This document shows positions 29,517 through 63,984 of a stretch of DNA of 64,000 nt, piece after piece. Below the pieces are notes generated by a model. That model was given only the letters and a program-made list of their open reading frames with translations, was not told the origin of the DNA and made no database searches. The number at the start of each line of letters is the position of its first letter. Positions within the stretch are counted from its first letter, which is position 1. Source of the DNA: a virus; IMG/VR virus record IMGVR_UViG_3300042560_001826, positions 41,122 to 105,121 of that record. One strand, given 5' to 3'. Position numbers and translations under genes: made by a program.

Positions 29517-29918
29517 ATGTTCAACAAAGATGACTTTGATAATTTAGATGATATTAATGAAGATACAGTACCTGATGGTGTTGTTGATGCTAGTAATTAT
29601 GCATTGATATTGAAACAAACAACTGAGTATCTAAAAGATACTGATTACGAATCTGCTGAAAGCAGAATGGTAGCAATGATGAATATCGTAAATCTAATGC
29701 ATGAAAATGAAGATACTCTAAGTGATGATAGTGTTTATGGCGTTGTTATTGCTCTTATGTATCATATTCAAACTGTACTTTCGGGTATGGTCAATGAGGA
29801 TAGAGAAGAGTATTTCAACCATTTAGAAACAGAAGTATTGCCAATTTTTAGTATGGAAGCGTCAATGCTTCCGTATTACGATAACCCAGAAGAAACGGGA
29901 GATGAAAGCAGTGACTGA
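29517..29918 (+). CDS. Hypothetical acidic helical protein
   Basis: 133 residues, AAAGG upstream. Nearly all-helical and very acidic. No domain recognised. Ends 17 bases inside the WhiB gene. Confidence 0.72.
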   Translation: MFNKDDFDNLDDINEDTVPDGVVDASNYALILKQTTEYLKDTDYESAESRMVAMMNIVNLMHENEDTLSDDSVYGVVIALMYHIQTVLSGMVNEDREEYFNHLETEVLPIFSMEASMLPYYDNPEETGDESSD

Positions 29919-30231
29919 TTATCAACAATTACTAATCAACATGAATGAATCATGGAGAAAAGATACTGTTTGCAGTAAAACAAAAACGATTGATTGGTTT
30001 TCTGATGAAAAAGATCAAATCAAAATGGCAAAAGAGGCTTGTAGAAAATGCCCTGTTGCCGATAAATGTTTAGAGTTTGCTGTGCGGAATAAGGAAAGAT
30101 TTGGTGTCTGGGGCGGGTTTACGCCAAGAGAAAGAAATAAAATTACTAGACATCTTGTTTCATTAACAAAGGAGGAAGCCAAAGATTTGGTGATCAAATA
30201 TGGAAACCAAGTATTGTCTCAGACTAGTTAA
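29902..30231 (+). CDS. WhiB-like iron-sulfur regulator (second copy)
   Basis: 109 residues. C24, then C47-x2-C50-x5-C56, followed by the canonical turn RFGVWGGFTPRER. This is a textbook WhiB sequence, closer to the cellular family than the copy at 2740. The basic C-terminal helix (ERNKITRHL) could contact DNA. It should bind a [4Fe-4S] cluster and sigma-A region 4 and redirect transcription. Its position in the accessory operon suggests a different expression time from the first copy. Confidence 0.93.
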   Translation: MKAVTDYQQLLINMNESWRKDTVCSKTKTIDWFSDEKDQIKMAKEACRKCPVADKCLEFAVRNKERFGVWGGFTPRERNKITRHLVSLTKEEAKDLVIKYGNQVLSQTS

Positions 30232-43270: not shown

Positions 43271-43314
43271 CATAGGGAATAATATCAATAAACGAACACA
43301 TGTTTGGAGGAAAA

Positions 43315-43521
43315 ATGATTGACGAAACACACTGGGAAAATGCTCCGGCTAGGGTACAAGATCACTTCATTGAATCAGCTTTCAATGAATTAGTGGAGAG
43401 AGGATTTATCCCACTAATGGATGAACCAATGGAGGAAACGCCGGGTTTTGATAATGCCTACGAAATGGCAATTGAGAAATTCAACGAAAAGTATCCAAAC
43501 GGGTTCTTTGAGAATGAGTAA
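43315..43521 (+). CDS. Small acidic protein with its own promoter
   Basis: 68 residues from ATG 43315 with TTGGAGGAAAA. Acidic (PLMDEPMEETPGFD). The frame continues after its stop for 28 codons, encoding RTRLFKCQCGREL, a zinc-knuckle-like stretch without a start codon, perhaps a remnant. Function unknown. Confidence 0.68.
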   Translation: MIDETHWENAPARVQDHFIESAFNELVERGFIPLMDEPMEETPGFDNAYEMAIEKFNEKYPNGFFENE

Positions 43522-44465
43522 CCAAAGTGGCCAGAAAACGCACTACGGAAGCGTACAAGGCTTTTTAAGTGCCAATGTGGTCGGGAATTGATTAATATCT
43601 ATTTATAAGAACTGGAGAGAGATAAAGAATAAAAGCGGGTCTTAATTATCTTTCAGTATAGAGATAGAGAATCTATAGAGAGACTAGAGAATGAATAAGG
43701 CTGCGTCTACCTGAAATAAGTAGGATATGTCCCTTAGAAAATGTTGTGTTACGTCCCACAGTAAAGAGGCGAAAAGCGCGCAAATATTACGGTATTTTTA
43801 TTAAATACTATGGTGTTTTATAAAATATAGGGCAAAAAGCCCTTAAAATGCATGAAAAAGCTTCACTTTTGCACAAGCTGGTATAAATATGTATGTATCT
43901 ATCTCTCTATAGGTATAAAGAGACATTTAAACCCCGCCATAAAGGTATCCAGGAGATAAAAGAATGGGTAATAGATAAATTCATTATAAATTAGTTCACT
44001 AATGAACTTATAGAACTTATCATTAAACTTCTCATAGAACTGATCATTGAATTCAGGCGGGAATAAGCCTACTGATTACAGCACTGTAATTTGTAAGGAG
44101 CTAGACTAACCTTTGCCCCGGCAAAAAGAGACGGTAATGGATCCGTCATAAAGGTATTACTTTTTGTAAATCATTACATAATAAAAAAGGTGATTTTTTT
44201 TATGTACTCTAAGTAATATTACGATGGTAATGTTACCAACCGTAATATTACACCTGGCAGATCACCTGACTTCGTTAGGGAATGGATCGACAAAAGGCTA
44301 AAACAAATCCTGGGCGATAAGATCGTCAAATATATCTTTTTTATATTTCTTTCAGGTAAGGTTGGTTTTTTTTAGATCAGCCGATAGCGTGAGTGTATCG
44401 GTTGCGAAACTGATGAAATAAATAAAAAAATAAAAAAATCAACAAAAAAGGAAAAAGGTAAAACA
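43522..44465 (+). other. Long intergenic region opening the 44-50 kb section
   Basis: 944 bases without a convincing gene. Contents: a small AGGGC/GCCCT hairpin near 43830; two GAGAC-N13/14-CATAAAGG elements (about 43918-43947 and 44127-44156), like the pair at 20.4 kb; an imperfect 24-base tandem repeat near 44012-44059 (ATAGAACTtATCATT / ATAGAACTgATCATT); palindromes GTAATATTAC (44213), GTAATGTTAC (44227) and GTAATATTAC (44242) at 14-15 base spacing; and a leader hairpin CCGATA/TATCGG shortly before the next gene. Could hold an origin or control region. Confidence 0.6.
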
Positions 44466-44786
44466 ATGGCTACGGAAAAGAATGACGATTTTGAAATCGT
44501 CAATGAAGCGGATTTGGAATTCGCTTCTCGTGGAAGAAAATCAAACATTAGCGATAGCGAAATCGCTAAGGTAAAAGAAACATTGAAGAAAAATCCAAAT
44601 GGTTGGGTTTTGTTCAATGGTAAGGCTATTCCTAATGGAATGACTAACGCTAAGGATATTCGTAACCATAAGGCTGCGAATTCCGCAACGCTTAGGGCAT
44701 TGGCTAAGAAATTGGGAATGAAAGCAGAAATTCGTTGGCATAAGGGAACTGTTCCAGCAGTTCGCTTTTCTAAGGTTTCTGCTTAG
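44466..44786 (+). CDS. Family A small basic protein (A2)
   Basis: 106 residues with GGAAAAAGG upstream. DFEIVNEADLEFASRGRKS (about 8-26) and ALAKKLGMKAEIRWHKGTVP near the C-terminus are the family signature. Basic overall. Monocistronic, with a leader hairpin and an 11-bp terminator. Arginine is mainly CGT. AT-richer than A3 and A4 despite clear protein similarity. Function unknown; nucleic-acid binding is inference from charge. Confidence 0.82.
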   Translation: MATEKNDDFEIVNEADLEFASRGRKSNISDSEIAKVKETLKKNPNGWVLFNGKAIPNGMTNAKDIRNHKAANSATLRALAKKLGMKAEIRWHKGTVPAVRFSKVSA

Positions 44787-44817
44787 TAATTAGACAATAG
44801 TTTTCGCAACTGTTAGG

Positions 44818-44853
44818 GAATGGGTGGGGTAAAACCCACCCATTCTTTTTTTT
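44818..44853 (+). terminator. Rho-independent terminator after A2
   Basis: GAATGGGTGGG/CCCACCCATTC (11 bp, loop GTAAAA) followed by eight T. Confidence 0.95.
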
Positions 44854-45175
44854 ATTTGTGTCGATCCCGGAATAAAGATAAAGAATTACGTTACCGTAAT
44901 CTTACAGATCCGCATTAGTGATTACATAAAGGATCTTCCAGGGATAAAGAAATAGATTAGAAAAATGCTTACTAAATTATTTAGGTACGGTGTAATATTA
45001 CCACGGTCGTAATGTTACAAAATTCTAACATTACACCCGCCCCGTAATATTACTTACTAAGTAAGATTACATAAAGGCTTACATAAAGGTAATATTTTAT
45101 ATAAAAGAAATGCTTACTCAAATGCTAAAAGAAGTCATGTAATGTTACCAGCCGTAATATTACCGAACTCCGGTC
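44854..45175 (+). other. Spacer with dense palindrome cluster
   Basis: No gene. Seven GTAAnnTTAC palindromes start at 44896, 44992, 45009, 45044, 45061, 45139 and 45154, often in pairs 15-17 bases apart, plus a near copy CTAACATTAC at 45025. Three CATAAAGG elements (near 44933, 45069 and 45080), all on the + strand. Confidence 0.75.
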
Positions 45176-45245
45176 GAAAAAAAAACCTGGGCTTACGGCT
45201 GTGTAAGCTTTGACTTGGTGAGAGCCAAACTTACACAGCCGTAAG
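45176..45245 (-). terminator. Terminator for A3 (leftward)
   Basis: A perfect 16-bp inverted repeat: CTTACGGCTGTGTAAG (45192-45207) and CTTACACAGCCGTAAG (45230-45245). On the minus strand it is followed after six bases by nine T (45178-45186). Stem and T-run support termination of the leftward A3 transcript. Confidence 0.75.
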
Positions 45246-45314
45246 ACACCTTCTGTTGCCCCGCCTAGTTAGGGCGGCGATGGTCAATAATCCATCGGGG
45301 ACGATTCACCTAAG

Positions 45315-45617
45315 TTACTTAGACGTAACGAGACGAACGGTAGGAACACCGTCGGTGGTGAAGGCAATGCGCACCTTCACGCCGACAGACTTCGCGCATG
45401 CCCTGAGCATCGCGCTCACGGCAGCCTTGCGAGTCTTCGCGTTCGTACCCTTCGGGTCAACCTTGTACGAAGGCAGAGCCAAAACTTTCCCAGCGGGAAG
45501 TTTAGCGATAGCCTGCGCAAGCTTCGGGTCGGCGTTTGACTTGCGTCCACGCTTAGCGAAACTAAGGTCGCTCTCGTTCACGATCTCGAACTCGGGTGTA
45601 TCGTTGGTCTTAGCCAA
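45315..45617 (-). CDS. Family A small basic protein (A3)
   Basis: 100 residues from a TTG start with AAAGGAG six bases upstream. FEIVNESDLSFAKRGRKS and KSVGVKVRIAFTTDGVPTVR carry the family signature. GC-rich, with CGC/CGT arginine and almost no AGA, very unlike the neighbouring accessory genes. A CAGTAG/CTACTG hairpin lies in the leader. Between 45245 and the stop are two more short hairpins (CGATGG/CCATCG, CCGCC/GGCGG). Confidence 0.82.
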   Translation of the reverse strand: MAKTNDTPEFEIVNESDLSFAKRGRKSNADPKLAQAIAKLPAGKVLALPSYKVDPKGTNAKTRKAAVSAMLRACAKSVGVKVRIAFTTDGVPTVRLVTSK

Positions 45618-46159
45618 ACGTTACTCCTTTGTAAGAAAAGGTTACGGGTATGGATTAGACAGTAGTACCACTACTGCCCGACGCTGTAAGTTTTGATCTA
45701 GTGTGTTCGTTACCTTACACACGGGTAGGATTCGCTGACTGCCTACCTTCCCAAACTTACCGCCGTGTAACGGTAGTGCGACACCTGAACCTAGCCGAAG
45801 TGATCCCGAAGGATCACCGTTGCTCGCCCCGTAATTTTACGGGACCGCCTACTAGGTGACTCAGGTACGGGTCAACGCACCGATAAGGATTCTAACAGAT
45901 GATCGGCAAAAGCGGGCGGATAGTAAAACGGCTCAAATAAAAGACTACTGAATAGGTCGATAATAGGGTAAAGATAAAGTCCGGCGGCCCTGTAATCTTA
46001 CAATTAGACTTTGATAAAGTTCCAGGACCGTAATCTTACATTGGAAAAATGTATTAAACTAATCTTACATAAGTGTAATGTTACTGCGGGCGTAATCTTA
46101 CGGTGAGTAAGGTTAACGCCCGCGTAATCTTACGCTAGTAATATTACATAGAGAAAATA
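45618..46159. other. Spacer with junction element and palindromes
   Basis: No gene. At 45783-45866 a possible three-way junction: outer ACCTGA/TCAGGT and CCTAG/CTAGG, inner GTGATCC-CGAA-GGATCAC and CCCGTAA-TT-TTACGGG, the latter containing a GTAATTTTAC site (45831). Other palindromes start at 45992, 46030, 46075, 46092, 46124 and 46138. GCGGGCG and CGCCCGC flank the pair around 46092-46124. Confidence 0.65.
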
Positions 46160-46206
46160 AAAAAAATAAGTCGATAGCGCCGGGGCTCTTGCGAACCCCG
46201 ACGCTA
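46160..46206 (-). terminator. Rho-independent terminator for A4 (leftward)
   Basis: TAGCGCCGGGG (46175-46185) and CCCCGACGCTA (46196-46206) form an 11-bp stem with one G-T pair; on the minus strand TCGACTTATTTTTTTT follows. Confidence 0.88.
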
Positions 46207-46225
46207 CCTACTTGGCTTGGGGGAG

Positions 46226-46510
46226 TTAGTCTGCCAAGATGACTTGTGGCGTACCGTTGGCACTCCAACGGATCGCAACCTTCTTGCCTGCCTGCTTGCC
46301 TGCCTGACGGATTTGGGCAGATACCTTAGCCTTCTCCGTCTTAGCCTTCGGACTGTTGGGGTTCACGGTCATTCCCGTGAGTTTCAGTCCTTGACCCTTC
46401 TTGAGCTTGGAAATTGCGCCTACGAGGGCAGGGCTCACGGTGGACTTACGCCCACGCTTGGAAAATTCCAAGTCCTGCTCGGAGACAATCTCAAAATTGT
46501 CTGTTGCCAT
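46226..46510 (-). CDS. Family A small basic protein (A4)
   Basis: 94 residues; AGAAGGGAA before the ATG. NFEIVSEQDLEFSKRGRKS and QAGKKVAIRWSANGTPQVIL give the clearest family signature. GC-rich codons. Leader contains a GAGCC/GGCTC stem. Monocistronic with a strong terminator. Function unknown. Confidence 0.83.
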   Translation of the reverse strand: MATDNFEIVSEQDLEFSKRGRKSTVSPALVGAISKLKKGQGLKLTGMTVNPNSPKAKTEKAKVSAQIRQAGKQAGKKVAIRWSANGTPQVILAD

Positions 46511-46923
46511 TGTTGTGGTATTCCCTTCTGAGCCTTACTTAGATTTGGGGCTCCGTTGTTGTTTAGAACACTATCCAATAGGGGAAAACGACGCAAGTAT
46601 GCGAACAGTCAAAAAACGCTGTATTTATTGGGGTTTTTGAGTGTGTGTCGTGAGTCACACGGTAGAAAAATGGAGATTTCCATAAATTACACGACCCTAC
46701 CGAACAAGTGTTTGGTGAGGTATTGTGAGATTAGATCCCATAAACTTTCTTGTGTGTAAAATTACATTTACGAAAGAGTACTAAATTTTTATTACATGTC
46801 AGTAATGTTACAGAGGGTGTAAGTTTTAGTCCCCCCAAAACTTACACCCTTCGTAATATTACCTAGATGAGCTATAAAATTACACGGGCCGGTAAGCCCG
46901 TGTAACTTTACTGCCGTGTAATA
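46511..46923. other. Spacer with hairpins and palindromes
   Basis: No gene. Palindromes at 46756 (GTAAAATTAC), 46802, 46853 and 46902 (GTAACTTTAC). A 14-bp hairpin AGGGTGTAAGTTTT / AAAACTTACACCCT spans 46814-46850 without a T-run, so is probably a structural element. Confidence 0.65.
46876..46905 (-). terminator. Rho-independent terminator of the 46924-47399 operon
   Basis: TTACACGGGC-CGGTAA-GCCCGTGTAA (10 bp) followed on the minus strand by TTTTAT, 19 bases after the stop. Confidence 0.85.
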
Positions 46924-47280
46924 CTAGGCTGTTGCCAAAACGCTAATGGCTTGGCGTATCGGATACCCATTCTGGATAAATTGGTGGCGTATATCAACAG
47001 GCACCTGTGTAAGTTTACGCATCGCCTCATCTTGGGCATTTACGAGGGTAAGCATTTCCGCCAAATATTCCATAGCGGTATGATTAGAAACTAACGGTAA
47101 ACCGTGTTCGGTCATTTCCGCGAGCTTATCTAACGCGCCTGTAATTTTATCGGAGAGGTCATCACCGATTTCCTCGCGCCCGATTTCCAGAATGATACCG
47201 AGGTCGTGGAATATTAGGGATCGTGTTCTCGTAGCTTTACTAGTGAGAATTACGCCTTCCGCAAATCGTTCTTCGTTCAT
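46924..47280 (-). CDS. Hypothetical helical protein
   Basis: 118 residues; GGAGG lies before ATG 47280, so I prefer it to the in-frame ATG at 47295. Entirely helical in appearance, mildly acidic, ending in VDIRHQFIQNGYPIRQAI. No family recognised. The start overlaps the stop of the membrane peptide upstream (TAATG). Confidence 0.72.
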   Translation of the reverse strand: MNEERFAEGVILTSKATRTRSLIFHDLGIILEIGREEIGDDLSDKITGALDKLAEMTEHGLPLVSNHTAMEYLAEMLTLVNAQDEAMRKLTQVPVDIRHQFIQNGYPIRQAISVLATA

Positions 47281-47399
47281 TATTTTTTCCTCCATAGTTC
47301 TTCGTAAAACGCTCGCCTCTTTTGTTGCCAGCGTGTAATTTTTGGGTGGATAATAAATGCTATTATTACTGACAGTAGGAATATCTTGATATTGGTCAT
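47280..47399 (-). CDS. Small membrane peptide
   Basis: 39 residues. One hydrophobic helix (IFLLSVIIAFII) then a very basic tail (RWQQKRRAFYEELWRKK). Coupled by TAATG to the downstream helical protein. Weak ribosome site. Function unknown. Confidence 0.55.
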   Translation of the reverse strand: MTNIKIFLLSVIIAFIIHPKITRWQQKRRAFYEELWRKK

Positions 47400-47652
47400 A
47401 CTTCCATTTTACAAAACTTACACAACCAATACAAGGATCACATTTTCCATAAAGGGTAAGGCCTAGTAATCTTACACACTAAAAGAATGAGGCTTAGTAA
47501 TATTACACCTGCCATACCGGTGCTCCATAAAGATCTAATTATGTAATATTACTGAGCTGTAATAATTGTTGCTAATGGTAAGATTACGCGATCACGCGAA
47601 CAAATGTTTGGTCGGCCGGTGATCGTCGATCGTGCCTATTGTTGCGATCGTG
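47400..47652. other. Spacer with palindromes
   Basis: No gene. Palindromes at 47466, 47497, 47543 and 47578; CATAAAG elements near 47447 and 47525. Ends at the promoter of B1. Confidence 0.7.
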
Positions 47653-47682
47653 TATGCTTACTATGTCGGCAATTCCGCCGAC
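47653..47682 (+). promoter_or_regulatory. B1 promoter and 5'-terminal hairpin
   Basis: TATGCT (47653-47658), six bases, then GTCGGC-AATTCC-GCCGAC (47665-47682), then ACTCACGAAAGG and the ATG. The transcript would begin at the foot of the hairpin. The same arrangement with changed but still paired stem bases precedes 48435 and 49404. Confidence 0.75.
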
Positions 47683-47701
47683 ACTCACGAAAGGCAAGGC
47701 A

Positions 47702-48118
47702 ATGAAGGCAAAGGCAAAAGCGTTCGCAAAGGCGATGAGTGTTCTCATCGGTAATGCGAACAAGGTACGCGCCAAAAAAGGCGTGAAGCGTATCTACGAC
47801 AGCGCGGTACTCAATACCGCTATTGGTACGGCACTACAAAAAGGCGTTTTGCCAAAAGGCGAGAACGCTCGCCTATGGTGCTTCGCAAATGATGCCGTTG
47901 TTGTAGATGTTCGGACTATCGTTCACGAAAACATCGGTGATGAAGCATCGCACGAACGACCCGAAAATACTGTTCGTGCGAGACTCATCACGCTTGCGAA
48001 ACTAAACAAAGACATCACGAAGCTTGCCTATGTTCGTTATCTCACGAACGGTACGCCTAGTGCCGATGATGCGAACAACGACGACGCTTACAAAGTTTTC
48101 ATTTTCCGTAAGCGTTAG
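47702..48118 (+). CDS. Family B basic protein (B1)
   Basis: 138 residues from ATG 47702 (GAAAGG seven bases before). Lys-rich N-terminus, AKKGVKRIYDSAVLNTAIGT, and a C-terminal block ENTVRARLITLAKLN followed by LAYVRYLTNGTPS and YKVFIFRKR shared with the genes at 48886 and 50090. Codons are rich in CG-containing words (TTCGC, GCGAA), unlike the bulk genome. Function unknown; probably nucleic-acid or ribosome binding by charge (inference). Confidence 0.82.
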   Translation: MKAKAKAFAKAMSVLIGNANKVRAKKGVKRIYDSAVLNTAIGTALQKGVLPKGENARLWCFANDAVVVDVRTIVHENIGDEASHERPENTVRARLITLAKLNKDITKLAYVRYLTNGTPSADDANNDDAYKVFIFRKR

Positions 48119-48130
48119 AAACAAAAAGAG

Positions 48131-48163
48131 TGACGGGGCGGAAACGCCCCGTCATTTTTTTTT
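48131..48163 (+). terminator. Rho-independent terminator after B1
   Basis: TGACGGGGCG-GAAA-CGCCCCGTCA followed by nine T. Confidence 0.96.
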
Positions 48164-48385
48164 GTATCCGTTTAGTCGAGTAGCCCGGACTAATTAGATT
48201 TCGTTCCATAAAAGGTACACGCTTGTAAGATTACAAAATCGTACTGAATTTTTATGCATAATGCTGCATGATTATGCGGGTGCGTCTCTACGCAAAGCTG
48301 TGAGCTCCACCCGCGTAATCTTACACCGTAAAGGGTTAGCTTTGTAATGTTACACAGCATGACTTGCATCGACTAATAGATCGTG
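48164..48385 (+). repeat. Spacer with three-way-junction element (copy 1)
   Basis: GCGGGT (48276-48281) pairs with ACCCGC (48309-48314), enclosing GCGT-CTCT-ACGC (48282-48293) and AGCT-GTG-AGCT (48296-48306). Palindromes GTAAGATTAC (48225), GTAATCTTAC (48315, directly after the junction) and GTAATGTTAC (48344). A ~100-base homologous copy lies at 49553-49660. Confidence 0.7.
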
Positions 48386-48415
48386 TAGACTATTGGTATC
48401 GGCAATCCTGCCGAT
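48386..48415 (+). promoter_or_regulatory. 48435 promoter and 5'-terminal hairpin
   Basis: TTGCAT, 16 bases, TAGACT (48386-48391), six bases, then ATCGGC-AATCCT-GCCGAT (48398-48415) and ATCACGAAAGG. Compared with the B1 leader the outer pair changes from G-C to A-T, keeping pairing. Confidence 0.72.
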
Positions 48416-48434
48416 CATCACGAAAGGTTACACA

Positions 48435-48641
48435 ATGTCCACATTTGAAACACACGACGAGATAATCCAGAAGGTTCGTACCTTCTATCGGGAGACCTAC
48501 AACATGTCCGAATCAGCCCTGCCATGCCATAACTGCATGTTTGAGCAAGAGCCAGACACCGAATGTGGCTATGTCTGGATAACCTGCGAAGCCGACAACA
48601 TGAATAATGATTCAGACGGTTGCAATTGGGGTAATGTTTAG
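48435..48641 (+). CDS. Small cysteine-rich protein
   Basis: 68 residues from ATG 48435. CHNCMFEQEPDTECGYVWIT then C and a final DGCNWG give six cysteines, likely a metal site. Acidic. Shares the leader hairpin with family B but not its protein sequence. Function unknown. Confidence 0.75.
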   Translation: MSTFETHDEIIQKVRTFYRETYNMSESALPCHNCMFEQEPDTECGYVWITCEADNMNNDSDGCNWGNV

Positions 48642-48657
48642 TTACAACTAAGTAAGT

Positions 48658-48695
48658 AAAGCCCGGTCCTAACCCCCTGGGGCCGGGCTTTATTT
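48658..48695 (+). terminator. Rho-independent terminator
   Basis: AAAGCCCGG (48658-48666) with CCGGGCTTT (48683-48691), inner CCCC/GGGG pairing, then ATTTATT. Confidence 0.88.
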
Positions 48696-48835
48696 ATTAT
48701 TACCTTATAGTAATCTTACCTATAATGATCTCCATAAAGATAATGAATACTAAACTTACTTATTAGTAATGTTACACGCCAACCGTAACATTACCGGGCT
48801 ATCGGTTGCCCCGGTCGATCAAGGGTAGAAAGAGA
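48696..48835. other. Short spacer with palindromes
   Basis: No gene. GTAATCTTAC (48710), GTAATGTTAC (48766), GTAACATTAC (48785); a CATAAAG element near 48732. Confidence 0.7.
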
Positions 48836-48874
48836 AAGAACCCCACCTACCCTTTCGGGTAAGTGGGGTTCTTG
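48836..48874 (-). terminator. Terminator for B2
   Basis: AAGAACCCCAC and GTGGGGTTCTT form 11 bp with an inner TACCC-TTTC-GGGTA stem; the minus strand continues with T-rich TTCTCTTTC. Confidence 0.82.
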
Positions 48875-48885
48875 TGTTCTGTTCG

Positions 48886-49404
48886 CTACTTCGTGCGAAC
48901 GATAAACACTTTCTCGCACTCATTAGTCACGCCGTTCTCAAGCCATGACTCTTGAGCCATTCGTGCATCAACGGCCCAGATAACGGTGAGATCGCCCAGA
49001 ATGAGCTTACTCTTCTGCCAACTGATGAGCCTTGCACGAACGGCATTGTCGGCACGGTAGTTCGTAGCCTTACTGCACACTTCGCTACGAAGAACGAACG
49101 GCACTTCGTTCTGGAGACAGAACTTCAGAAGTTGTGCTTTGCTCTTCTTGACGGGTTCGCCGTTCGCATCAACAGTCCATGTCTCAAGAACGGGTTTCGT
49201 TGATGCAATAGAAACTGCTCGCATCAGAAGTTCAGCACCGTCATTCGTTGAGAATGGCTTTACTCTCTTCTTCTTATTCTTCTCATTGCAAGAAGAAAGT
49301 TTCTCAACGGACTTCTGAAAGAGTCCCGACGCTTTCGCGCCGAAAGACTGAACTTCTTTCTTTCTACCTTTCGCTACTTTCGTAGCCTTTCTCTTCTTCG
49401 CCAT
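48886..49404 (-). CDS. Family B basic protein (B2)
   Basis: 172 residues, CGAAAGG site. Very basic N-terminus (AKKRKATKVAKGRKKEV), then the family block DNAVRARLISWQKSKLILGD followed by LTVIWAVDA and CEKVFIVRTK. Longer than B1 and B3 because of an extended N-terminal half. Arginine is mostly CGN; many ACTTCGT-like words. Preceded by the shared 5'-terminal hairpin. Confidence 0.82.
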   Translation of the reverse strand: MAKKRKATKVAKGRKKEVQSFGAKASGLFQKSVEKLSSCNEKNKKKRVKPFSTNDGAELLMRAVSIASTKPVLETWTVDANGEPVKKSKAQLLKFCLQNEVPFVLRSEVCSKATNYRADNAVRARLISWQKSKLILGDLTVIWAVDARMAQESWLENGVTNECEKVFIVRTK

Positions 49405-49425
49405 TGTGCTCTTACCTTTCGTGAT

Positions 49426-49457
49426 AGTGGGCCGAATTGCCCACTAGTAGAAGTGTA
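49426..49457 (-). promoter_or_regulatory. B2 promoter and 5'-terminal hairpin
   Basis: On the minus strand TACACT (49457-49452), six bases, then AGTGGGC-AATTCG-GCCCACT (49445-49426) and ATCACGAAAGG. Third example of the same leader with different but fully paired stem bases. Confidence 0.75.
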
Positions 49458-49671
49458 ACAGAACTAGGTGAGATTACAACGATCCAATTTCTGCATTACA
49501 ATTCACACTCATGCATGATCATGCATAAATGATTAGGAAATCACACTAAATTGTAATCTTACATGCATAATTATTCAGCGGGTGCGTCAGAAACGCGAAG
49601 CTGTCTGCTCCACCCGCCGTAACATTACGCCGTAAAGGGTTAGATCTAGTAACATTACACGGAAGTAAGGT
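49458..49671. repeat. Spacer with three-way-junction element (copy 2)
   Basis: GCGGGT (49578-49583) with ACCCGC (49612-49617); inner GCGT-CAGAA-ACGC (49584-49596) and AGC-TGTCT-GCT (49599-49609). Palindromes at 49553, 49619 and 49649. CCGTAAAGGGTTAG after the junction is shared with copy 1. Both copies point the same way though the flanking genes do not. Confidence 0.7.
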
Positions 49672-49710
49672 AATAAAAACCCCGCCCGGTTTTTAATCGA
49701 GCGGGGTTCT
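49672..49710 (-). terminator. Terminator for the 49715 peptide gene
   Basis: AACCCCGC (49678-49685) with GCGGGGTT (49701-49708); minus strand ends TTTTTATTA. Confidence 0.85.
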
Positions 49711-49714
49711 TTTA

Positions 49715-49816
49715 TTACTTGCGATTGCGGAAGTAAGCTAAAACGCTTACGCTGAACACAACAGCAAGAATGAGCGAGTAAGAAACATACTCACTAATGT
49801 TGAGGGTAAGTTGCAT
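49715..49816 (-). CDS. Small single-pass membrane peptide
   Basis: 33 residues with AAGGAGATCACA before the ATG. A hydrophobic helix (YSLILAVVFSVSVLAYF) and a basic end (RNRK). It has its own terminator, so is very likely a real gene. Similar design to the peptide at 40689. Function unknown. Confidence 0.72.
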   Translation of the reverse strand: MQLTLNISEYVSYSLILAVVFSVSVLAYFRNRK

Positions 49817-50045
49817 TGTGATCTCCTTTCTTACTATCCAGCCTACAAACATTACACAGATAATACAAGCACCTATTACCTCATAAAGTGTAAGGTATCG
49901 TAATATTACTCATTAAAAATGAGACACTCATAGACTCTAATAGCGTTGGTGGCGTAATGTTACACACACTAAAAATGAGAGAGGGATCTGTGTAAGGTTA
50001 CTTGGTGTGTGCCCCGGTCGATCGGGCCGGGGGTACATAGCAGAA
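49817..50045. other. Spacer with palindromes
   Basis: No gene. Palindromes GTAATATTAC (49900), GTAATGTTAC (49954) and GTAAGGTTAC (49992); a CATAAAG element near 49881. These are the last palindromes on the right side of the array. Confidence 0.7.
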
Positions 50046-50069
50046 CCCCCACCCCTTGCGGGGTGGGGG
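50046..50069 (-). terminator. Hairpin after B3
   Basis: CCCCCACCCC-TTGC-GGGGTGGGGG, a 10-bp GC stem 20 bases beyond the B3 stop. The T-run is poor, so stem strength must do most of the work. Confidence 0.65.
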
Positions 50070-50089
50070 CTTGCGGGGGATTGGGGGTG

Positions 50090-50539
50090 CTACTTGGTCT
50101 TGCGGTAGAGCAGAACCTCGTAGGCTTGGGGGTTCTTGGGATCAATCGCAGGGTTCCCCTTGCCATTGACTAGCACCCTCAGATAGCCCACCTTGCCGAC
50201 CTGACTATCTACCTTGGTGAGGCTCAGTAGTCGGGCGTTGATGGTGAGGTCAGGTCGCTTGAATAGGTTCGGGGTGAGGTGGCGCACTACCTGACGGACA
50301 TCCACCCTGACGGTATGCGGGCTAGTGCGTACCTCGTGCTTGGTGATAGCGGGCAGGCTCAGGGCTTGGGCTACTGCGGTGAGCAGATAGTTAGCACCCT
50401 TATCCTCGTAGTGACGCTTGACCCCACGCTTGGCGTTGAGGTCACGCTTGGCGGTGCGCTTGGCGGTAAGGGTGCGCATAGTCTGCGTCACCTTAGCCTT
50501 GCTCACCCCCTTGCGGTTGGTCTTGGTCTTGGTTGCCAT
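50090..50539 (-). CDS. Family B basic protein (B3)
   Basis: 149 residues from ATG 50539 (AGAGAGG upstream; a longer frame to 50581 lacks a site). Basic N-terminus, AKRGVKRHYEDKGANYLLTA matching B1, then INARLLSLTKVDSQVG, YLRVLVNGKG and AYEVLLYRKTK. Strongly GC-rich; 11 of 13 arginines are CGN and none AGA. The leader contains a degenerate GGC-ATCCC-GCC at the usual place. Confidence 0.82.
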   Translation of the reverse strand: MATKTKTNRKGVSKAKVTQTMRTLTAKRTAKRDLNAKRGVKRHYEDKGANYLLTAVAQALSLPAITKHEVRTSPHTVRVDVRQVVRHLTPNLFKRPDLTINARLLSLTKVDSQVGKVGYLRVLVNGKGNPAIDPKNPQAYEVLLYRKTK

Positions 50540-51144
50540 TGGTACTGCCTCTCTGTGCTTGGGCTTGGCGGGATGCCTCACCTCGTTGATAACTACCTTA
50601 GCCGATACCTAGCCCTATTCCTACCTCGTAGCCTTACCTCGCAAGATTACCTATCCGACAGAATTACCCTAAAACCCTTATTCTATGCGGGTTCTAGCGT
50701 CGATCCTATGACGAAACTAATCGTTACCTAATCGTAACATAACAGATCACCCTATTGACCCCCCCGAACACAGGTTCGCCCTAGGGGTTAGATATAGCAT
50801 AACCCTGCATAGAAATATACTAAAATTTTTGATACAATGGCGCGGAATGGCTTTCTAATGAAATTGCTTCTAATGAAATTACTTCTAATGAAATTGCCGG
50901 GAATAATTGCCGGGGTTAACTCTTCTCAGACAAAGGCGGGGTTGGATAGACCTATCTCGCTGGTAGTGGTGGGCGAGATAGGCGCTCACAAAACCGGGAT
51001 CTCCGGATCGGGATCACCGGTTGGAGCAACCCCGTAACAAGGAATCCGGGGTTATCGGGCGTAACTATAACGGTCCCAAGGTATTGGGATGCCCGATGGA
51101 AACTATTTCACATAAATAATTTCCGGGATTTATTCTACCAGATA
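50540..51144 (+). other. Structured non-coding region with 23S rRNA-like segment
   Basis: No convincing gene in 605 bases. Three tandem copies of a 15-base unit CTTCTAATGAAATTG lie near 50850-50895. Stems: CCTATCTCG/CGAGATAGG (50951-50982); CGGGGTTG (50937-50944) with CAACCCCG (51027-51034), the latter also able to pair with CGGGGTT (51047-51053); ATCGGGC/GCCCGAT (51054-51097) enclosing TCCCAA-GGTA-TTGGGA. 51061-51083 matches the universally conserved 23S rRNA helix 69 region at 22 of 23 bases. Confidence 0.65.
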
Positions 51145-55098: not shown

Positions 55099-55587
55099 TT
55101 AAGCCTTTTGTCTCTCCTCTTCTGGGCTAAGAATTTCAAACTTACCTCTTTGTACCTTCTTAAAGAAATGCCTATTGGCATTGTAGAAGTTGTAAAAGGT
55201 TGGAAGTGAAATATTCACATTTTGTGCAACCTCAGCTGGCGTAATTACTTTACCAACATTGGTGCGCAAAAATCCAACAATAATATCTTGCTTTGATCTT
55301 GTTCTAGACACGATTTGTTCACCTCCCTTTTCTGGGAAATTAAATTTCTCCCAGAGAGATTTTGCAACATCTTTCGGTAGAGAGTAATACTTAATTGTCT
55401 TTGCAAGATTCCATCCTTTGTAATATCCAAAGAATACGGAAGATGCAATCCTCTCTACGCCCTGCTCAAGCAAGCCAAGCTTGCTCATTGCCTGATCGTG
55501 TAACTTTTCAACTTCATGAAAAGGAAGCTTCCATTGACTATTTTCTTCTTGATTTTGGTCCTCTTGGACCTCGGGTTTTTCGCTCAT
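55099..55587 (-). CDS. Winged-helix protein from a leaderless promoter
   Basis: 162 residues. Acidic N-terminus; C-terminal half TPAEVAQNVNISLPTFYNFY fits a winged-helix/HTH recognition region. TACGAT (55599-55594) ends six bases before the ATG at 55587 without a ribosome site, as in leaderless genes. Likely DNA-binding. Confidence 0.72.
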   Translation of the reverse strand: MSEKPEVQEDQNQEENSQWKLPFHEVEKLHDQAMSKLGLLEQGVERIASSVFFGYYKGWNLAKTIKYYSLPKDVAKSLWEKFNFPEKGGEQIVSRTRSKQDIIVGFLRTNVGKVITPAEVAQNVNISLPTFYNFYNANRHFFKKVQRGKFEILSPEEERQKA

Positions 55588-55654
55588 GCGACAATCGTAG
55601 CACATATTAGAAAATGAAAATGGGTAATTAGAAAATTATTTTAAAAATAAGTAA

Positions 55655-57964: not shown

Positions 57965-58305
57965 TCATTTTCCTCATCATCAATTTCTATTTCATCTAAA
58001 TCTTCAATAACTTGAAACTGCTCGTTAAATTCTTCATTTGTATAATCAAATCTATCTTTGCCATTACTATCAAAGATTTTTGTTTTGAGAATATGTGTTA
58101 TTATTTCATCAACTTTGTTCTTAGCAATCTCAATTCCATCCATTAAAGCATTCAGTTCATCTATTGAAATACCGTACTCCTCTGTAGGAGACATAATTAC
58201 AAATGATGGGATATAACCATCCTCAAAAGGAACTGCTTTAATTACAAGCTGGAGAGAAGGTATTTCTTCAAACTCCATTTCATTGTCAAAGTTAACTATT
58301 CTCAT
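57961..58305 (-). CDS. Hypothetical acidic protein
   Basis: 114 residues. First half beta-like (LQLVIKAVPFEDGYIPSFVI), then helix and a very acidic end. No family recognised. Confidence 0.72.
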   Translation of the reverse strand: MRIVNFDNEMEFEEIPSLQLVIKAVPFEDGYIPSFVIMSPTEEYGISIDELNALMDGIEIAKNKVDEIITHILKTKIFDSNGKDRFDYTNEEFNEQFQVIEDLDEIEIDDEENE

Positions 58306-58478
58306 TAGCTTTTACTCTTAGTGTCTCTTTTAAAAAATCCAACAAACCAAATAGTTGTTAAAACTAAGAATGCTGAACTAAGAAAATCAATTGAGTAATC
58401 AAAAGCTAGATAAAGCGAATACTTTACCAATAAAGCTGATACTGCAATCCAAATTAGAGCGATAATAAATTTTTGCAT
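58305..58478 (-). CDS. Small membrane protein
   Basis: 57 residues from ATG 58478 with GGAGGTCACC. Two hydrophobic helices separated by a short polar turn (YLAFDYSIDF), basic tail. First gene of the leftward operon. Function unknown. Confidence 0.68.
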   Translation of the reverse strand: MQKFIIALIWIAVSALLVKYSLYLAFDYSIDFLSSAFLVLTTIWFVGFFKRDTKSKS

Positions 58479-58688
58479 GGTGACCTCCAGCTGTGAGCAT
58501 AGCAGAAATTTTTCAAATTTCGCACACGGAAGCAAAAAATCTGGTATGCTTCGCATGCCCGCATGCGAGCAAGCTATTACTCTAATATACTCTAGTATAA
58601 CTAGTATACCTACATATACTTAGCATGCTTAGTATGCTAGAGAAATTTTTTAAGTTTTCTACCAAAATAAAAAAAATGGTGGTAATGT
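58479..58688. promoter_or_regulatory. Divergent promoter region
   Basis: Lies between leftward and rightward blocks. TCGCATGC-CC-GCATGCGA (near 58552-58569) is a perfect palindrome; short repeats of TAGTAT, TATACT and GCATGCT fill 58580-58640. Minus strand has TGCTATGCT shortly before the GGAGGT of the first leftward gene; plus strand has TATACT and TATGCT boxes. A regulated bidirectional promoter is likely. Confidence 0.6.
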
Positions 58689-58937
58689 ATGTGTATGCAG
58701 ATTGTAGCCGTTGTGGAATCCGACGATTATGGCCCCGCTGTAATCATGGATCCGGAGCATATTAGCATTATGCGGTTTGATGACTTCTTCATCGCGGCTG
58801 CCAGATGTGTTTTTACAAACCAACCAATCAGTTGCGAAATTTCTGTCGGCACAGCGAGTGCCTTAATGCGCAAGGGAGTTAGATGTTTTCAGGTTTCATC
58901 AATTGATGAAGATTACACCACAAAGAAAGAAAAATAA
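58689..58937 (+). CDS. Small hypothetical protein
   Basis: 82 residues; GGTGG upstream; an internal ATG at 58695 is also possible. Mixed alpha/beta (MQIVAVVESDDYGPAVIMDP). No family recognised. Coupled to the glycosyltransferase that starts 3 bases later. Confidence 0.68.
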   Translation: MCMQIVAVVESDDYGPAVIMDPEHISIMRFDDFFIAAARCVFTNQPISCEISVGTASALMRKGVRCFQVSSIDEDYTTKKEK

Positions 58938-58940
58938 CTC

Positions 58941-59954
58941 ATGAAAAAAATTAGTTGGTTTAGTTTGAATCGTGAAGACGCTTCGGGTGAAACTTGGTTT
59001 AGTCCTGGTTATATAAACGCTGCTGTCTCAACAATTAGGGCTCTACAAAACAAGAAGTGTGGTGTGTTTTACAATCGCCCAGATATTGATTATCATGTAA
59101 ACTTCTGCCCAGCAACATACTATCAGTATAACTCTAAATATAATGTTGGTTATACACCGTGGGAGTCAACTAAAATTCCAGATCACTGGATTGATAATAT
59201 GCGTCGTTGTGATGAGATTTGGACAACATCAAACTTTGTTAAAAAAGTTTATGAGTCTCATAATGTAAATGCAAATATTCATGTTATTCCACATGGGATA
59301 TCTGAGGATTTTTCAATAGTCGAAAGAGAGTTAACATCAACATTTAATTTTATTCATGTTGGCGGTGATTCAAGAAGAAAAAATGCTCAAATGGCAGTTG
59401 ATGCCTTCTTGGAACTTTATGAAGGCAATAATGACTTTAGATTAATTCTAAAATATGATAAATTCTGTATGGCAGAAGTTTATGTTAACGGAAGACTGCT
59501 TCCAGCATCAATGCATCCACAAATTGTTGCAATCCCAGAATCACTTAGTGTTGATGATTTGGTATCTTTATATCACAAAGCTCATTGTATGATTTATCCA
59601 ACGATGGGTGAAGGGTTTGGTATGATTCCATTTGAAGCGATTTCAACTGGTCTTCCAACAATTGTGACAAATCTTACTGGGTGTGCAGATTTTGCTCAGT
59701 ATGGAATTCCACTTGATGCTGAATATTCAAAAGCAACATGGAATGATTATTATTTTTCAACAGACACTGGTGAATGGGCAAGTCCAGACTTTGATCAACT
59801 TGTTGACTTGATGGAAGATGTCGTAAATGAATACGATGAAGTTAAAAAATCTTTTGTCAAGTCTGCAAAAATTCTTCACTCTGAGTGGTCTTGGGATGCT
59901 ACGGCTGCTAAGATTCTTGAGCGTTTGGATTTCTACGAAAAATCTTTTGCGTAG
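58941..59954 (+). CDS. GT-B glycosyltransferase (family 4-like), copy 3
   Basis: 337 residues. VGYTPWESTKIPDHWIDNM, CDEIWTTSNFVKKVYES, IHVGGDSRRKNAQMAVDAFL and MIYPTMGEGFGMIPFEAIS align with the copy at 18797 and more distantly with that at 12744. The shared WES/TKIP and DEIW segments indicate phage-internal duplication. Acceptor unknown. Confidence 0.88.
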   Translation: MKKISWFSLNREDASGETWFSPGYINAAVSTIRALQNKKCGVFYNRPDIDYHVNFCPATYYQYNSKYNVGYTPWESTKIPDHWIDNMRRCDEIWTTSNFVKKVYESHNVNANIHVIPHGISEDFSIVERELTSTFNFIHVGGDSRRKNAQMAVDAFLELYEGNNDFRLILKYDKFCMAEVYVNGRLLPASMHPQIVAIPESLSVDDLVSLYHKAHCMIYPTMGEGFGMIPFEAISTGLPTIVTNLTGCADFAQYGIPLDAEYSKATWNDYYFSTDTGEWASPDFDQLVDLMEDVVNEYDEVKKSFVKSAKILHSEWSWDATAAKILERLDFYEKSFA

Positions 59955-59970
59955 TCCTTAGTAATCTTTT

Positions 59971-59999
59971 TTGACTCTGGGCGTTTCATCCAATACAAT
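59971..59999 (+). promoter_or_regulatory. Strong sigma-A type promoter for the reductase
   Basis: TTGACT (59971-59976), 17 bases, TACAAT (59994-59999). Near consensus spacing and sequence; followed by a 30-base leader with AAGGAGGT. Confidence 0.85.
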
Positions 60000-60029
60000 T
60001 GGTTTCCCTATTTTTTTCAAGGAGGTAGT

Positions 60030-61958
60030 ATGTCACTTTTGACAAATGATTTTATTAATGGTTATAACACGAAGACCCCACCATGGGGCTTCGGAGGTCT
60101 TGGCGAAATTGTTTATTTAAGAACATATAGTAGAAAAATTGAATCCCTTAATCGTAATGAGACTTGGGTTGAAACTGTTAAAAGAATTGTTGATGGCGCT
60201 GTTGAAATCGGCGTTCCATTTAGCCAAGAAGAAGCAGAAAAACTTTTTGATCACATGTACAATCTTCGTTGTACTGTTGCAGGCCGTGCATTATGGCAGC
60301 TTGGAACACCACTTGTTTCTAAATTTTCGGGAACTTCTTTAAATAACTGCTTCTTTACGAATATTGAAAAGATTGAAGATTTTGAGCTTCTTTTTGATTA
60401 CCTCATGCTTGGTGGTGGAGTTGGTTTTTCTGTTGAGAGATCAAAGATTCATGACTTGCCAAAGGTAAAAGAAGTTAAGTTTGTTAAAGCAGAAAGAAGT
60501 AGCGATGCTGACTTCATCGTTCCAGACTCTAGACAGGGCTGGAGAGAGCTTCTTCACAAAGTTCTTGAATCTTATTTTGTTACTGGTAAGAGTTTTACAT
60601 ATTCAACTGTTTTAATCCGAGAGTTTGGTGCTCCGCTTAAGACATTTGGTGGAACCGCATCTGGTCCTGGCGCGCTCGTTGATGGTATTGCAGATATTTG
60701 CAAAGTTTTGGATAATAGAGTTGGTAAGAAATTGCGTTCTGTTGATGTGTTAGATATTTGTAACATTATTGGAAGAATTGTTGTTTCTGGGTCGTCTCGT
60801 CGCTCAGCACAAATTGCAATTGGAGATCCAGATGATGTTCTTTTCTTGAGAGCGAAGAACTGGTCATCTGGCTCAATTCCTGCTTGGAGGGCAAATAGTA
60901 ATAATTCCATCTATGCAGATTCATATGATCAAATTGTTGCAGAGTTGTGGAAAGGTTATGATGGCTCTGGTGAGCCGTATGGTCTTGTAAATAGAAAGCT
61001 TGCAAGAACTGTAGGTAGACTTGGTGAGCATGCACAGGATAATTCAGTTGAAGGATTTAATCCATGTGCAGAAATTGCCCTTGCTGATGGTGAATCTTGC
61101 AATCTTTCAACGATCTTCTTGCCAAATATTGAATCGCTTGAGCAGTTCAAAGAAATTTCAATTCTGCTATATAAGATTCAAAAACAAGTTACTAGACTTT
61201 CATACCCTTATGAAAAGACAAGTAAGATTGTTCAAAAAAATGCAAGATTGGGTCAGTCTATTACTGGCATCCTACAGTGCAAAGAAGAAAAGATTAATTG
61301 GCTATCTGATGTTTATGAAAACCTTAAGAAATTTGATAAGCAATACAGTAAAGAGCATGGATGGAATCCATCGGTTAGACTTACAACGGTTCAGCCTTCC
61401 GGAACATTGTCGCTATTGCCGGGTGTAACACCTGGAATACATCCAGCATTTGCAAAATACTATATCCGCCGTGTTCGTTTCGGTTCAGCAGATCCATTGG
61501 TTGAGGCATGCCGTAAGAGAGGTTATAAGGTTGTCTGGGATGTTGGTCTTGATGGCAGAGAAGATCATACAAGGTATGTCATTGAGTTCCCATGCAAGTC
61601 CCCAGAGGGATCTGTGCTTGCTAGTGAGATGACAGCAATTCAGCAGCTTGAATGGGTTAAGAAAATGCAAACTGTTTGGGCAGATAATGCTGTTTCAGTA
61701 ACTGTTTATTATCGGAAAGAAGAGTTGGTGGAAATTAAAAAGTGGCTGCAGGAGAATTATGATGATTCAGTGAAGTCTGTATCGTTCCTTCTTCATGTTG
61801 ATCACAACTTCCCGCTTCCTCCATATGAAGAAATTAGCGAAGAGGAATATAATAAGATTCTTTCTACGGTTGACTTCTCTATTCCCCTGCAAGATGGCGT
61901 TAATCAAGGAGAAATTGAGCTTGATAACTGCGCAACAGGCGCTTGTCCTATCAAATAG
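60030..61958 (+). CDS. Class II (B12-dependent) ribonucleoside-triphosphate reductase
   Basis: 642 residues. LNNCFFTNIEKIED (Cys near 106), FNPCAEIALADGESCNLS (catalytic Cys and Glu near 346-348, second Cys near 357) and a C-terminal redox pair DNCATGACPIK fit the monomeric adenosylcobalamin-dependent RTPR family. Reduces NTPs to dNTPs without oxygen dependence. Has the strongest promoter and ribosome site seen in the window, so probably highly expressed during replication. Cofactor must come from the host. Confidence 0.93.
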   Translation: MSLLTNDFINGYNTKTPPWGFGGLGEIVYLRTYSRKIESLNRNETWVETVKRIVDGAVEIGVPFSQEEAEKLFDHMYNLRCTVAGRALWQLGTPLVSKFSGTSLNNCFFTNIEKIEDFELLFDYLMLGGGVGFSVERSKIHDLPKVKEVKFVKAERSSDADFIVPDSRQGWRELLHKVLESYFVTGKSFTYSTVLIREFGAPLKTFGGTASGPGALVDGIADICKVLDNRVGKKLRSVDVLDICNIIGRIVVSGSSRRSAQIAIGDPDDVLFLRAKNWSSGSIPAWRANSNNSIYADSYDQIVAELWKGYDGSGEPYGLVNRKLARTVGRLGEHAQDNSVEGFNPCAEIALADGESCNLSTIFLPNIESLEQFKEISILLYKIQKQVTRLSYPYEKTSKIVQKNARLGQSITGILQCKEEKINWLSDVYENLKKFDKQYSKEHGWNPSVRLTTVQPSGTLSLLPGVTPGIHPAFAKYYIRRVRFGSADPLVEACRKRGYKVVWDVGLDGREDHTRYVIEFPCKSPEGSVLASEMTAIQQLEWVKKMQTVWADNAVSVTVYYRKEELVEIKKWLQENYDDSVKSVSFLLHVDHNFPLPPYEEISEEEYNKILSTVDFSIPLQDGVNQGEIELDNCATGACPIK

Positions 61959-62044
61959 CATTTCAATATGTTCAGTTTTAATATAAATTGGGAAAAGCTG
62001 TACTTGCATTCATCATTTTTGTTCTTTTTATAACAAAAATGGTG

Positions 62045-62060
62045 TACAATATGTTAGATG
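62045..62060 (+). promoter_or_regulatory. Leaderless promoter before the portal operon
   Basis: TGTACAAT with -10 box at 62045-62050, then seven bases and the ATG at 62058; no ribosome site. The AT-rich stretch upstream has TTGTTC at poor spacing. Confidence 0.6.
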
Positions 62061-62378
62061 ACAAGCGATATCGTCAAAAATAAGAAACTTTGGGTTCCCC
62101 CGAGGACATATGGTGTATGTATCTGGATTATGCCAGATGGAAAACCATTATCTGATGGCGACGGTGTGCTGTCAGCTGAAGGTTTTGTTGATGATAAAAA
62201 TATTGAAAAGCGAGTTGCTGAGGCTGCCAAGTATTGGACTGGTAGTAGTGAAGGTCGAATCGCTTGGGTTCATGGTGCAAGAAAAATTTCAGCTAGTGAA
62301 AGGGATGATCAAGTAGAGAGACTTCATAACGGCTTAGTTGCTGATCCGTATGAAGATTTTTTTGACAATCTGAGGTAA
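62058..62378 (+). CDS. Hypothetical protein preceding the portal
   Basis: 106 residues from a leaderless start. WVPPRTYGVCIWIMPDGKPL and SDGDGVLSAEG are typical of an uncharacterised protein that precedes portal genes in other actinophages. Function unknown. Confidence 0.75.
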   Translation: MTSDIVKNKKLWVPPRTYGVCIWIMPDGKPLSDGDGVLSAEGFVDDKNIEKRVAEAAKYWTGSSEGRIAWVHGARKISASERDDQVERLHNGLVADPYEDFFDNLR

Positions 62379-62379
62379 T

Positions 62380-63984
62380 ATGAACAAGAAAATGACTCAT
62401 GTAGAAGACGATATTGCTTCTCAAGAAATTGATGATATTGAATATCTTGCTTTAGAATCTAAAACAGTTATTGATGATCCTTTTGCAAAAATTGCATACT
62501 CTACTCTTTCTCCAAAGATGAAAAGAAGAGCCGCAAAACTTTCAAAGAAGTTTGAAGGGGTAGACGGAACATCTACAAAATATATTGATCCGGAAACTCT
62601 TGATGGATATTCTTTATACGATATCGTCAATCCGCCATATGATCTAGATACATTGGCCGGTCTATTTGACTCTAGCTCTATTCACAATGCATCTGTCATG
62701 GCAAGAGTAATGAACACGGTTGGTGTTGGTTTTGAATTTGAAGAGACTACAAAAGCAAAAAGAAAAATTGAAAAATCAATGGGTGACCCAGAAAAGGTCT
62801 CTCGTGTTAGAAAATCCCTTCAAGATGAAAAAGCTAGACTTGACGAAATTTTTGAAAATGTCAATGTTGAGGAAACATTTATTGAAACAATGATTAAGGT
62901 TTGGCAAGATGTTTTAACTGTTGGAAATGGCTATCTTGAGATTGGAAGAAATAATTCTGGTCAAATTGGATATATTGGTCATATTCCCGGAACCTTAGTT
63001 CGTGTAAGGAGAAAGAGAGATGGCTTTGTCCAAATCGCAAGAAGCAATAAAATTTCAGCAGTCTTCTTTAGAAACTATGGAGATCAAGAAACAGAGGATC
63101 CAATTAATAACGATCCAAGACCTAATGAGGTTATTCATTTTAAAATCTACTCTCCTAAGAATACATATTATGGTATTCCTTCTTCAGTTTCAGCTGCTGC
63201 TGCAATTGTTGGTGATAAATTTGCAAAAGAATATAACATTGATTATTTTGAGAATAAAGCAATTCCTCGCTATGCTGTAATTGTTAAAGGTGCAAAACTT
63301 AGTAATCAGTCAAAGCAAGAATTAATTAATTATTTTAGAAAAGAAGTTAAAGGAAGAAATCATGGAACTCTTGTTATTCCTATCCCTGCCTCTATTGGAG
63401 CAGATAGTGATATTAGATTTGAAAAGCTTGAAGCCGGTGTTCAGGATGCATCATTTGATAAGTATCGTAAAGCAAACAGGGATGAAATCCTTGTAGCCAA
63501 TAGAGTGCCAGCACCAAAAGTTGGTGTCTATGACAATGCAAACCTTGCAGTGTCTAGGGATTCTGATAAGACATTTAAAATGCAGGTCGTTGGTCCAGAT
63601 CAATCAGTGATTGAAAAGAGAATTAATCGTGTTCTTGCTGAGTTTACAGATTTATTTATTATGAGATTTAAGAAGATTGACTTGATTGATGAAGATATTC
63701 AGTCTAGAATTAATGATAGATATTTGAGGACAGAAGTTATTGCCCCGAATGAAGTTCGGTCATCACTTGGCTTGCCTGAGAGGGCTGATGGTGATGAAGT
63801 TCTTCCGTTCCCAACAAAGATTAAAAAAGAATCTGGTGCGGGAGCCCCAGTTGGTAATTCAAACAATCAGGCCTCCCAGCCAAGAAATGCAAGGTCGGAT
63901 ACGCCAGAAGGCGCATCTGATCCAAGAGTATCTGGCGATCAAGCAGAGCGCGGAGAGAACCAAGATAATTCAGGAGGACAATAA
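62380..63984 (+). CDS. Portal protein
   Basis: 534 residues. NPPYDLDTLAGLFDSSSIHN, VWQDVLTVGNGYLEIGRNNS, HIPGTLVRVRRKRDGFVQ, EVIHFKIYSPKNTYYGIPSS and QELINYFRKEVKGRNHGTLV follow the phage portal (PBSX/HK97-like) pattern. The last 60 residues are polar and disordered. Forms the dodecameric DNA entry ring that docks the terminase; begins the structural module continuing beyond the window. Confidence 0.93.
   Translation: MNKKMTHVEDDIASQEIDDIEYLALESKTVIDDPFAKIAYSTLSPKMKRRAAKLSKKFEGVDGTSTKYIDPETLDGYSLYDIVNPPYDLDTLAGLFDSSSIHNASVMARVMNTVGVGFEFEETTKAKRKIEKSMGDPEKVSRVRKSLQDEKARLDEIFENVNVEETFIETMIKVWQDVLTVGNGYLEIGRNNSGQIGYIGHIPGTLVRVRRKRDGFVQIARSNKISAVFFRNYGDQETEDPINNDPRPNEVIHFKIYSPKNTYYGIPSSVSAAAAIVGDKFAKEYNIDYFENKAIPRYAVIVKGAKLSNQSKQELINYFRKEVKGRNHGTLVIPIPASIGADSDIRFEKLEAGVQDASFDKYRKANRDEILVANRVPAPKVGVYDNANLAVSRDSDKTFKMQVVGPDQSVIEKRINRVLAEFTDLFIMRFKKIDLIDEDIQSRINDRYLRTEVIAPNEVRSSLGLPERADGDEVLPFPTKIKKESGAGAPVGNSNNQASQPRNARSDTPEGASDPRVSGDQAERGENQDNSGGQ

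Follow-up and report, generated by a model that had tools for sequence, protein, structure and literature searches.

Stoperators in the Cluster A mycobacteriophages L5 and Bxb1 are tens of short conserved intergenic sites for one DNA-binding protein; their specificity varies between related phages, and they can act away from promoters. In phage phi29, the phage-encoded early proteins p4 and p6 coat or bend the DNA of the early region and switch transcription from early to late (PMC3100819). We describe a locus that shares features with both systems, and with the long terminal repeats of Stanwilliamsviridae (Streptomyces BE phages, e.g., Bmoc), in a 64,000-nucleotide window (the whole stretch of DNA analyzed) of the 105,121-bp virus record IMGVR_UViG_3300042560_001826. 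The locus is an array of the 10-bp palindrome GTAANNTTAC (GTAAnnTTAC) packed in one ~6-kb section. Stoperators differ in being asymmetric, oriented with transcription, spread genome-wide, and tied to a prophage repressor. The likeness to phi29 would lie in phage early proteins acting on early-region DNA, not in recognized homology, and p6 is not known to bind short palindromes. A published description of such arrays was not found in the literature covered, which omits most subscription journals.

The window contains 41 exact copies of GTAANNTTAC, compared to a mean of 0.9 and a maximum of 3 in 100 dinucleotide shuffles; chance or composition was therefore rejected as the origin of the array. 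Thirty-eight copies are clustered at positions 44213 to 50001, and the other three are located at 20535, 23943, and 23959. The full record has 43 copies, with the two beyond the window apparently in coding sequence. The array section is richer in GC than its surroundings (45% versus 37%), making the clustering still less likely by chance. Although 44% of the section is coding, 37 of the 38 clustered copies are intergenic (binomial P of at most one in genes, ~8e-9). The lone genic copy, GTAAGTTTAC at 47009 to 47018 in open reading frame (ORF) 46924-47295 (minus strand), is probably due to chance. Each of the nine gaps from 43522 to 50089 holds three to seven copies. Among gapped palindromes with 4-base arms in the section, GTAANNTTAC (38 copies) was followed by TTAC-N6-GTAA with 15. 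A first-pass annotation of this DNA had reported the array and its three outliers, and the exact scan agrees. Its count of about 37 was nearly right, its claim that no copy is genic fails at 47009, and its rule of at least two copies per spacer holds for the nine gaps but not for the next one (50540 to 51144). The palindrome is rare by chance, as it had stated, at 0.9 rather than about two per window. Equal density in coding regions, which it had named as grounds for dropping the array, was not what we found. Spread as a mobile repeat was rejected, since the flanks are unrelated and conservation is limited to the arms, and an RNA hairpin reading was set aside because a 2-base loop cannot form.

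The elementary unit of the array is the half-site TGTAA (or TTACA), and a convergent pair 2 bp apart makes up GTAANNTTAC. The only enriched half-site spacings were N2 (convergent) and N6 (divergent, TTAC-N6-GTAA), which together form a 16-bp lattice; the divergent pair was strongly enriched in related loci L127, L129, L130, L132, L057, and L084. Nearby palindromes favor a step of 16 to 17 bp, loosened to 14 to 19 bp in the window's own clade, and the most distant array, L150, uses TGTAATATTACA. The boxes of the MerR-type regulators TnrA and GlnR have the form TGTNA-N7-TNACA. The half-site word TGTAA is the same, and a MerR-type protein is among the conserved products of the phage, but the spacing here is 2 bp (or 6 bp between divergent half-sites) instead of 7, so that the N7 box is not matched, and the phage protein is also present in relatives without the array. 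An additional element, ATAAAG, occurs at 43622 to 49888 with 16 copies on the plus strand and 1 on the minus strand, often 17 to 19 bp upstream of a palindrome. Unlike stoperators, it ignores gene direction, and the same one-sidedness was seen in L125, L122, L127, L129, L132, L057, and L150 when locus orientation was allowed for.

To find relatives, we searched viral contigs with members of two small paralogous protein families encoded within the array, A (A1 to A3) and B (B1 to B3); all relatives found in this way carry the array. Three further arrays (L122, L057, and L084) were found by DNA pattern alone and also encode A and/or B, as does every array found. The broad pattern scan is by itself unspecific, as most matches carry one chance pair. 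At least 17 related viral records have 12 to 66 copies of GTAANNTTAC each (66, 38, 16, 29, 20, 24, 36, 12, and 18; 41, 14, 46, 31, 33, and 22; 16 and 44), versus 0 to 2 for the reversed-motif control, with independent lineages numbering fewer than 17 because several records are near-identical strains. Over 16 sites compared between the window and L126, all 128 arm bases were identical, whereas the centers matched at 25 of 32 positions (78%) and the remaining spacer at 82%. All 16 sites were intact in L126, compared to 514 of 1,247 background windows; in L125, 19 of 37 sites were intact, compared to 106 of 2,951. The first-pass annotation had held that its reading would fall if related phages lacked the sites, and they are conserved. 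That reading, a binding site for a dimeric protein, is well supported by the constant arms, the free center, the two half-site geometries with their 16-bp register, and the conservation within the virus group. Since relatives retain the word in otherwise changing DNA, the palindrome is very likely bound by a protein that regulates or organizes DNA.

The sites are distributed along the section as follows from left to right. Three (44213, 44227, and 44242; 44213 to 44251) lie between gene 43300-43521 and A1 (44466 to 44786, plus strand; 106 amino acids [aa], with an RGRKS motif), and this triplet is preserved in L125 (9758/9772/9787) and L122 (4941/4954/4969). Seven (44896 to 45163) occupy the convergent gap between A1 and A2 (45315 to 45617, minus strand; 100 aa), flanked by the terminators of both genes; the same gap has four to nine sites in L125, L122, L127, L132, L146, and L148. 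Another seven (45831 to 46147) lie between the tandemly arranged A2 and A3 (46226 to 46510, minus strand; 94 aa), and four (46756 to 46911) are upstream of A3. Upstream of B1 (47702 to 48118, plus strand; 138 aa) are four sites (47466 to 47587), all retained in L126, and between B1 and a small gene (48435 to 48641, plus strand) are three (48225 to 48353) that keep their arms in L126 with altered centers. Three sites (48710 to 48794) lie in a second convergent gap, between the small gene and B2 (48886 to 49404, minus strand; 172 aa), three (49553 to 49658) are upstream of B2, and three (49900 to 50001) form the right end of the array. In the exact scan, the two intergenic outliers at 23943 to 23968 are 16 bp apart.

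Strong terminator-like hairpins follow several array genes, and the sites are located beyond them. The nearest sites are 48 to 246 bp from start codons and do not overlap an obvious promoter; most should therefore lie in untranscribed DNA. Site density is ~10 to 13 per kb whether a gap is convergent, tandem, or divergent, with the long first gap sparser. Dense convergent gaps are not predicted by a pure promoter-operator role; they are what would be expected of insulation, of a silencing complex that spreads, or of an architectural function. Sigma-70 promoter content was rejected as a feature of the array, since promoter-like matches were not above chance.

The most informative new fact, missed by the first-pass annotation, is that the array is placed like the early genes of a terminal repeat. 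The virus is distantly related to Stanwilliamsviridae, with identities of 38% for the DnaE-like polymerase, 48% for the portal, and 49% for the capsid protein. In Bmoc, the documented terminal repeat consists of small genes at 1 to ~10.9 kb that are repeated at 122.8 to 132.7 kb, and is followed by minus-strand genes and then by plus-strand glycosyltransferase, ribonucleotide reductase (RNR), and portal genes. The window has the same order after the array, with minus-strand genes and then glycosyltransferase (58941), RNR (60030), and portal (62380) genes on the plus strand, and the array lies between these minus-strand genes and the plus-strand genes of the right end. The rise in GC (56% versus 48% in Bmoc) and the many small genes with their own terminators are also shared. 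The array section is thus probably the long terminal repeat of the phage, as judged from synteny and the rise in GC. The two ends of the contig share 815 bp (799 identical) within the portal gene (62380 to 64000 and G000:C1:1-815), which closes the map; on a map closed in this way, any terminal repeat would have been collapsed at the array.

Related phages keep this slot while the repeated word changes. Two relatives, G016 and G022, lack a GTAANNTTAC array although their DnaE is 68 to 69% identical to that of the window, as in several array phages. The equivalent section of G022 (58051 to 62054; L251-L252) instead has 12 copies of AATGTGTATT, each with at most one mismatch and all on the same strand, among A-like proteins (61517 to 61828 and 62149 to 62454); several pairs of copies are spaced 98 to 99 bp. 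In Bmoc (L136:1-10900), most gaps have a single copy of the palindrome GGGCCGCCCCGGCCC, placed directly behind the terminator and ahead of the promoter; the core of this palindrome, CCGCCCCGG, has 16 copies in the first 11 kb and none in the next 29 kb. Bmoc resembles the window in placing a palindrome between terminator and promoter, but it uses another word, mostly in one copy per gap (three to seven here), and families A and B were not found in it. Tentatively, and with somewhat less than even confidence, we propose that, in one shared terminal-repeat slot, each related actinophage carries a repeated word specific to its lineage and a protein matched to it (GTAANNTTAC and family A here, AATGTGTATT and the diverged A-like proteins in G022, and GGGCCGCCCCGGCCC in Bmoc). 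This would be an undescribed regulatory or DNA-organizing system of the end region, diversifying in specificity while the core stays similar. If the pairing is true, it may determine superinfection compatibility, a part played by operator specificity in other phages. The array marks the probable terminal-repeat region of this widespread, little-studied group of aquatic actinophages as a defined regulatory or structural module, and it offers a DNA target together with a few candidate proteins in phages that swap the word and keep the slot.

Five imperfect 16-bp units (CTAAGCTTAC, GTAAGAATCC, GTAAGATTAC, GTAATCTTGT, and GTAAGTTTTC; 20503 to 20576, plus strand) lie directly upstream of the terminase gene (20610), and the outlier at 20535 is the best match among them. 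The units are followed by TATACT at ~20590 behind TG, as a -10 element, with no clear -35 box. G001 shares the layout of five units and then TG-TATAAT. The units were rejected as a group-wide feature, since they were seen only in the window and G001 and not in G006, G011, G017, or G020. Within the window's clade, the protein that reads the sites probably acts on the terminase promoter, plausibly as an activator. The gap upstream of terminase (20407 to 20609) also contains repeated ATAAAG/GAGACGGAAAA units, with ATAAAG upstream of the five GTAA units. In the array-less relatives, other tandem repeats lie upstream of terminase (G022:87071-87300 and G016:26850-27017; CTCATATTTTGAGATCTTTT... and ATAATTAGAGACCTTTTTTTG...).

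We see about an even chance that the palindromes are multicopy binding sites through which a phage-encoded protein coats the early terminal-repeat module and switches or insulates it. A sequence-specific phage protein would read TGTAA half-sites, two of which, facing each other 2 bp apart, make GTAANNTTAC, and the 16- to 17-bp register would let molecules on neighboring sites touch. As the sites fill the presumably untranscribed gaps of the early-gene region (terminator to terminator, or terminator to next promoter), their occupancy could build nucleoprotein blocks that insulate the monocistronic units and act on them in concert, by silencing or by timing. In the window's own clade, the terminase promoter would have come under the same protein. 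Most likely, a phage protein silences or insulates the units in a coordinated way; the main rival is a role at the genome end. Several points weigh against this reading. The gap upstream of B3 (50090 to 50539, minus strand; 149 aa), next after the nine array gaps, has no site. Equal density in promoterless convergent gaps means that promoter control cannot account for everything, and the reading leaves the one-sided ATAAAG element unexplained. No known DNA-binding family matches family A, which has weak fold matches and shares a replaceable module with the sites, so that the covariation of the two is confounded. The terminal repeat itself is inferred, the genome ends not being seen.

The even density in all gap types, the dense A1-A2 gap in all relatives checked, the one-stranded ATAAAG in every array checked whatever the gene direction, and the step near 16 bp could belong to a genome-end or segregation element. 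The sites and polarized ATAAAG would then form a centromere-, origin-, or packaging-like array that serves the organization, replication, protection, or packaging of the terminal repeat and does not act primarily in transcription. We regard this as unlikely but worth serious weight: in the window's clade, 16-bp GTAA units immediately precede the terminase promoter, some sites are close to promoter-like sequence, and no ParA/ParB-like pair or initiator was found among the proteins scanned, which do not include all ORFs. Classical operators, in which a repressor or activator bound to the closest sites upstream controls each early promoter, would account for the many sites upstream of genes, for the site at 48344 located ~10 bp upstream of a -35-like TTGCAT, and for a terminase promoter (TG-TATA[A/C]T beside 16-bp units, -35 not clear) that looks as an activator-dependent one would. 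This explanation is improbable given the distance of the nearest sites from start codons, the lack of overlap with an obvious promoter, the undiminished density of convergent gaps, the absence of sites upstream of B3, and promoter-like matches at chance level. Of the roles offered by the first-pass annotation (regulon, nucleoid, partition, or replication), a simple promoter regulon thus loses ground through convergent-gap density and the one-sided ATAAAG. Least probable is a host transcription factor or nucleoid protein whose binding the phage exploits. The half-site word is constant across phages with differing family A proteins, and the presence of WhiB in the phages points to an actinobacterial host; on the other hand, the word is missing or replaced in close relatives with an equally similar core, a pattern that a phage-specific factor explains better unless the hosts differ.

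As binders of the sites, we provisionally rank family A as the first candidate, the MerR-type helix-turn-helix (HTH) protein P0001 (2104 to 2541, plus strand) as the second, and a host factor as the third. RGR-x-S is invariant in family A. The model of A3 (helix-strand-helix-strand-strand; predicted local distance difference test [pLDDT] score of 82) gave only weak fold matches, several of them to winged-helix proteins, and one viral homologue of unassigned function. By sequence, no credible match to family A or B was found in Pfam, PHROGs, or the PDB; no family A member was found in cellular genomes, and no PDB match was found for the confident predicted fold of B1 (pLDDT, 92). A profile comparison was negative, and A and B were thus rejected as one family. 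Strongly diverged family A proteins (E values of 1e-6 to 2e-3) occur in G016 and G022, both without the palindrome but with the full core. P0001 is 54 to 79% identical in five array relatives. Its case as a clear binder is weakened, as array-less G016, G018, and G022 retain a nearly unchanged HTH. The protein encoded at 55099 to 55605 is likewise conserved both in array relatives and in array-less phages.

The MerR-type gene adjoins a WhiB-type gene (2104 to 3045), and a second WhiB-type gene is located at 29902 to 30231. WhiB-type genes indicate an actinobacterial host, and our data suggest that the virus infects water-dwelling actinobacteria. Finally, hairpins in the 5' untranslated regions (TCGGCAATtccGCCGA-like; 47660 to 47700 and 48395 to 48430) directly precede the ribosome-binding sites of two array genes, an arrangement suggestive of the stabilization of strong early transcripts.

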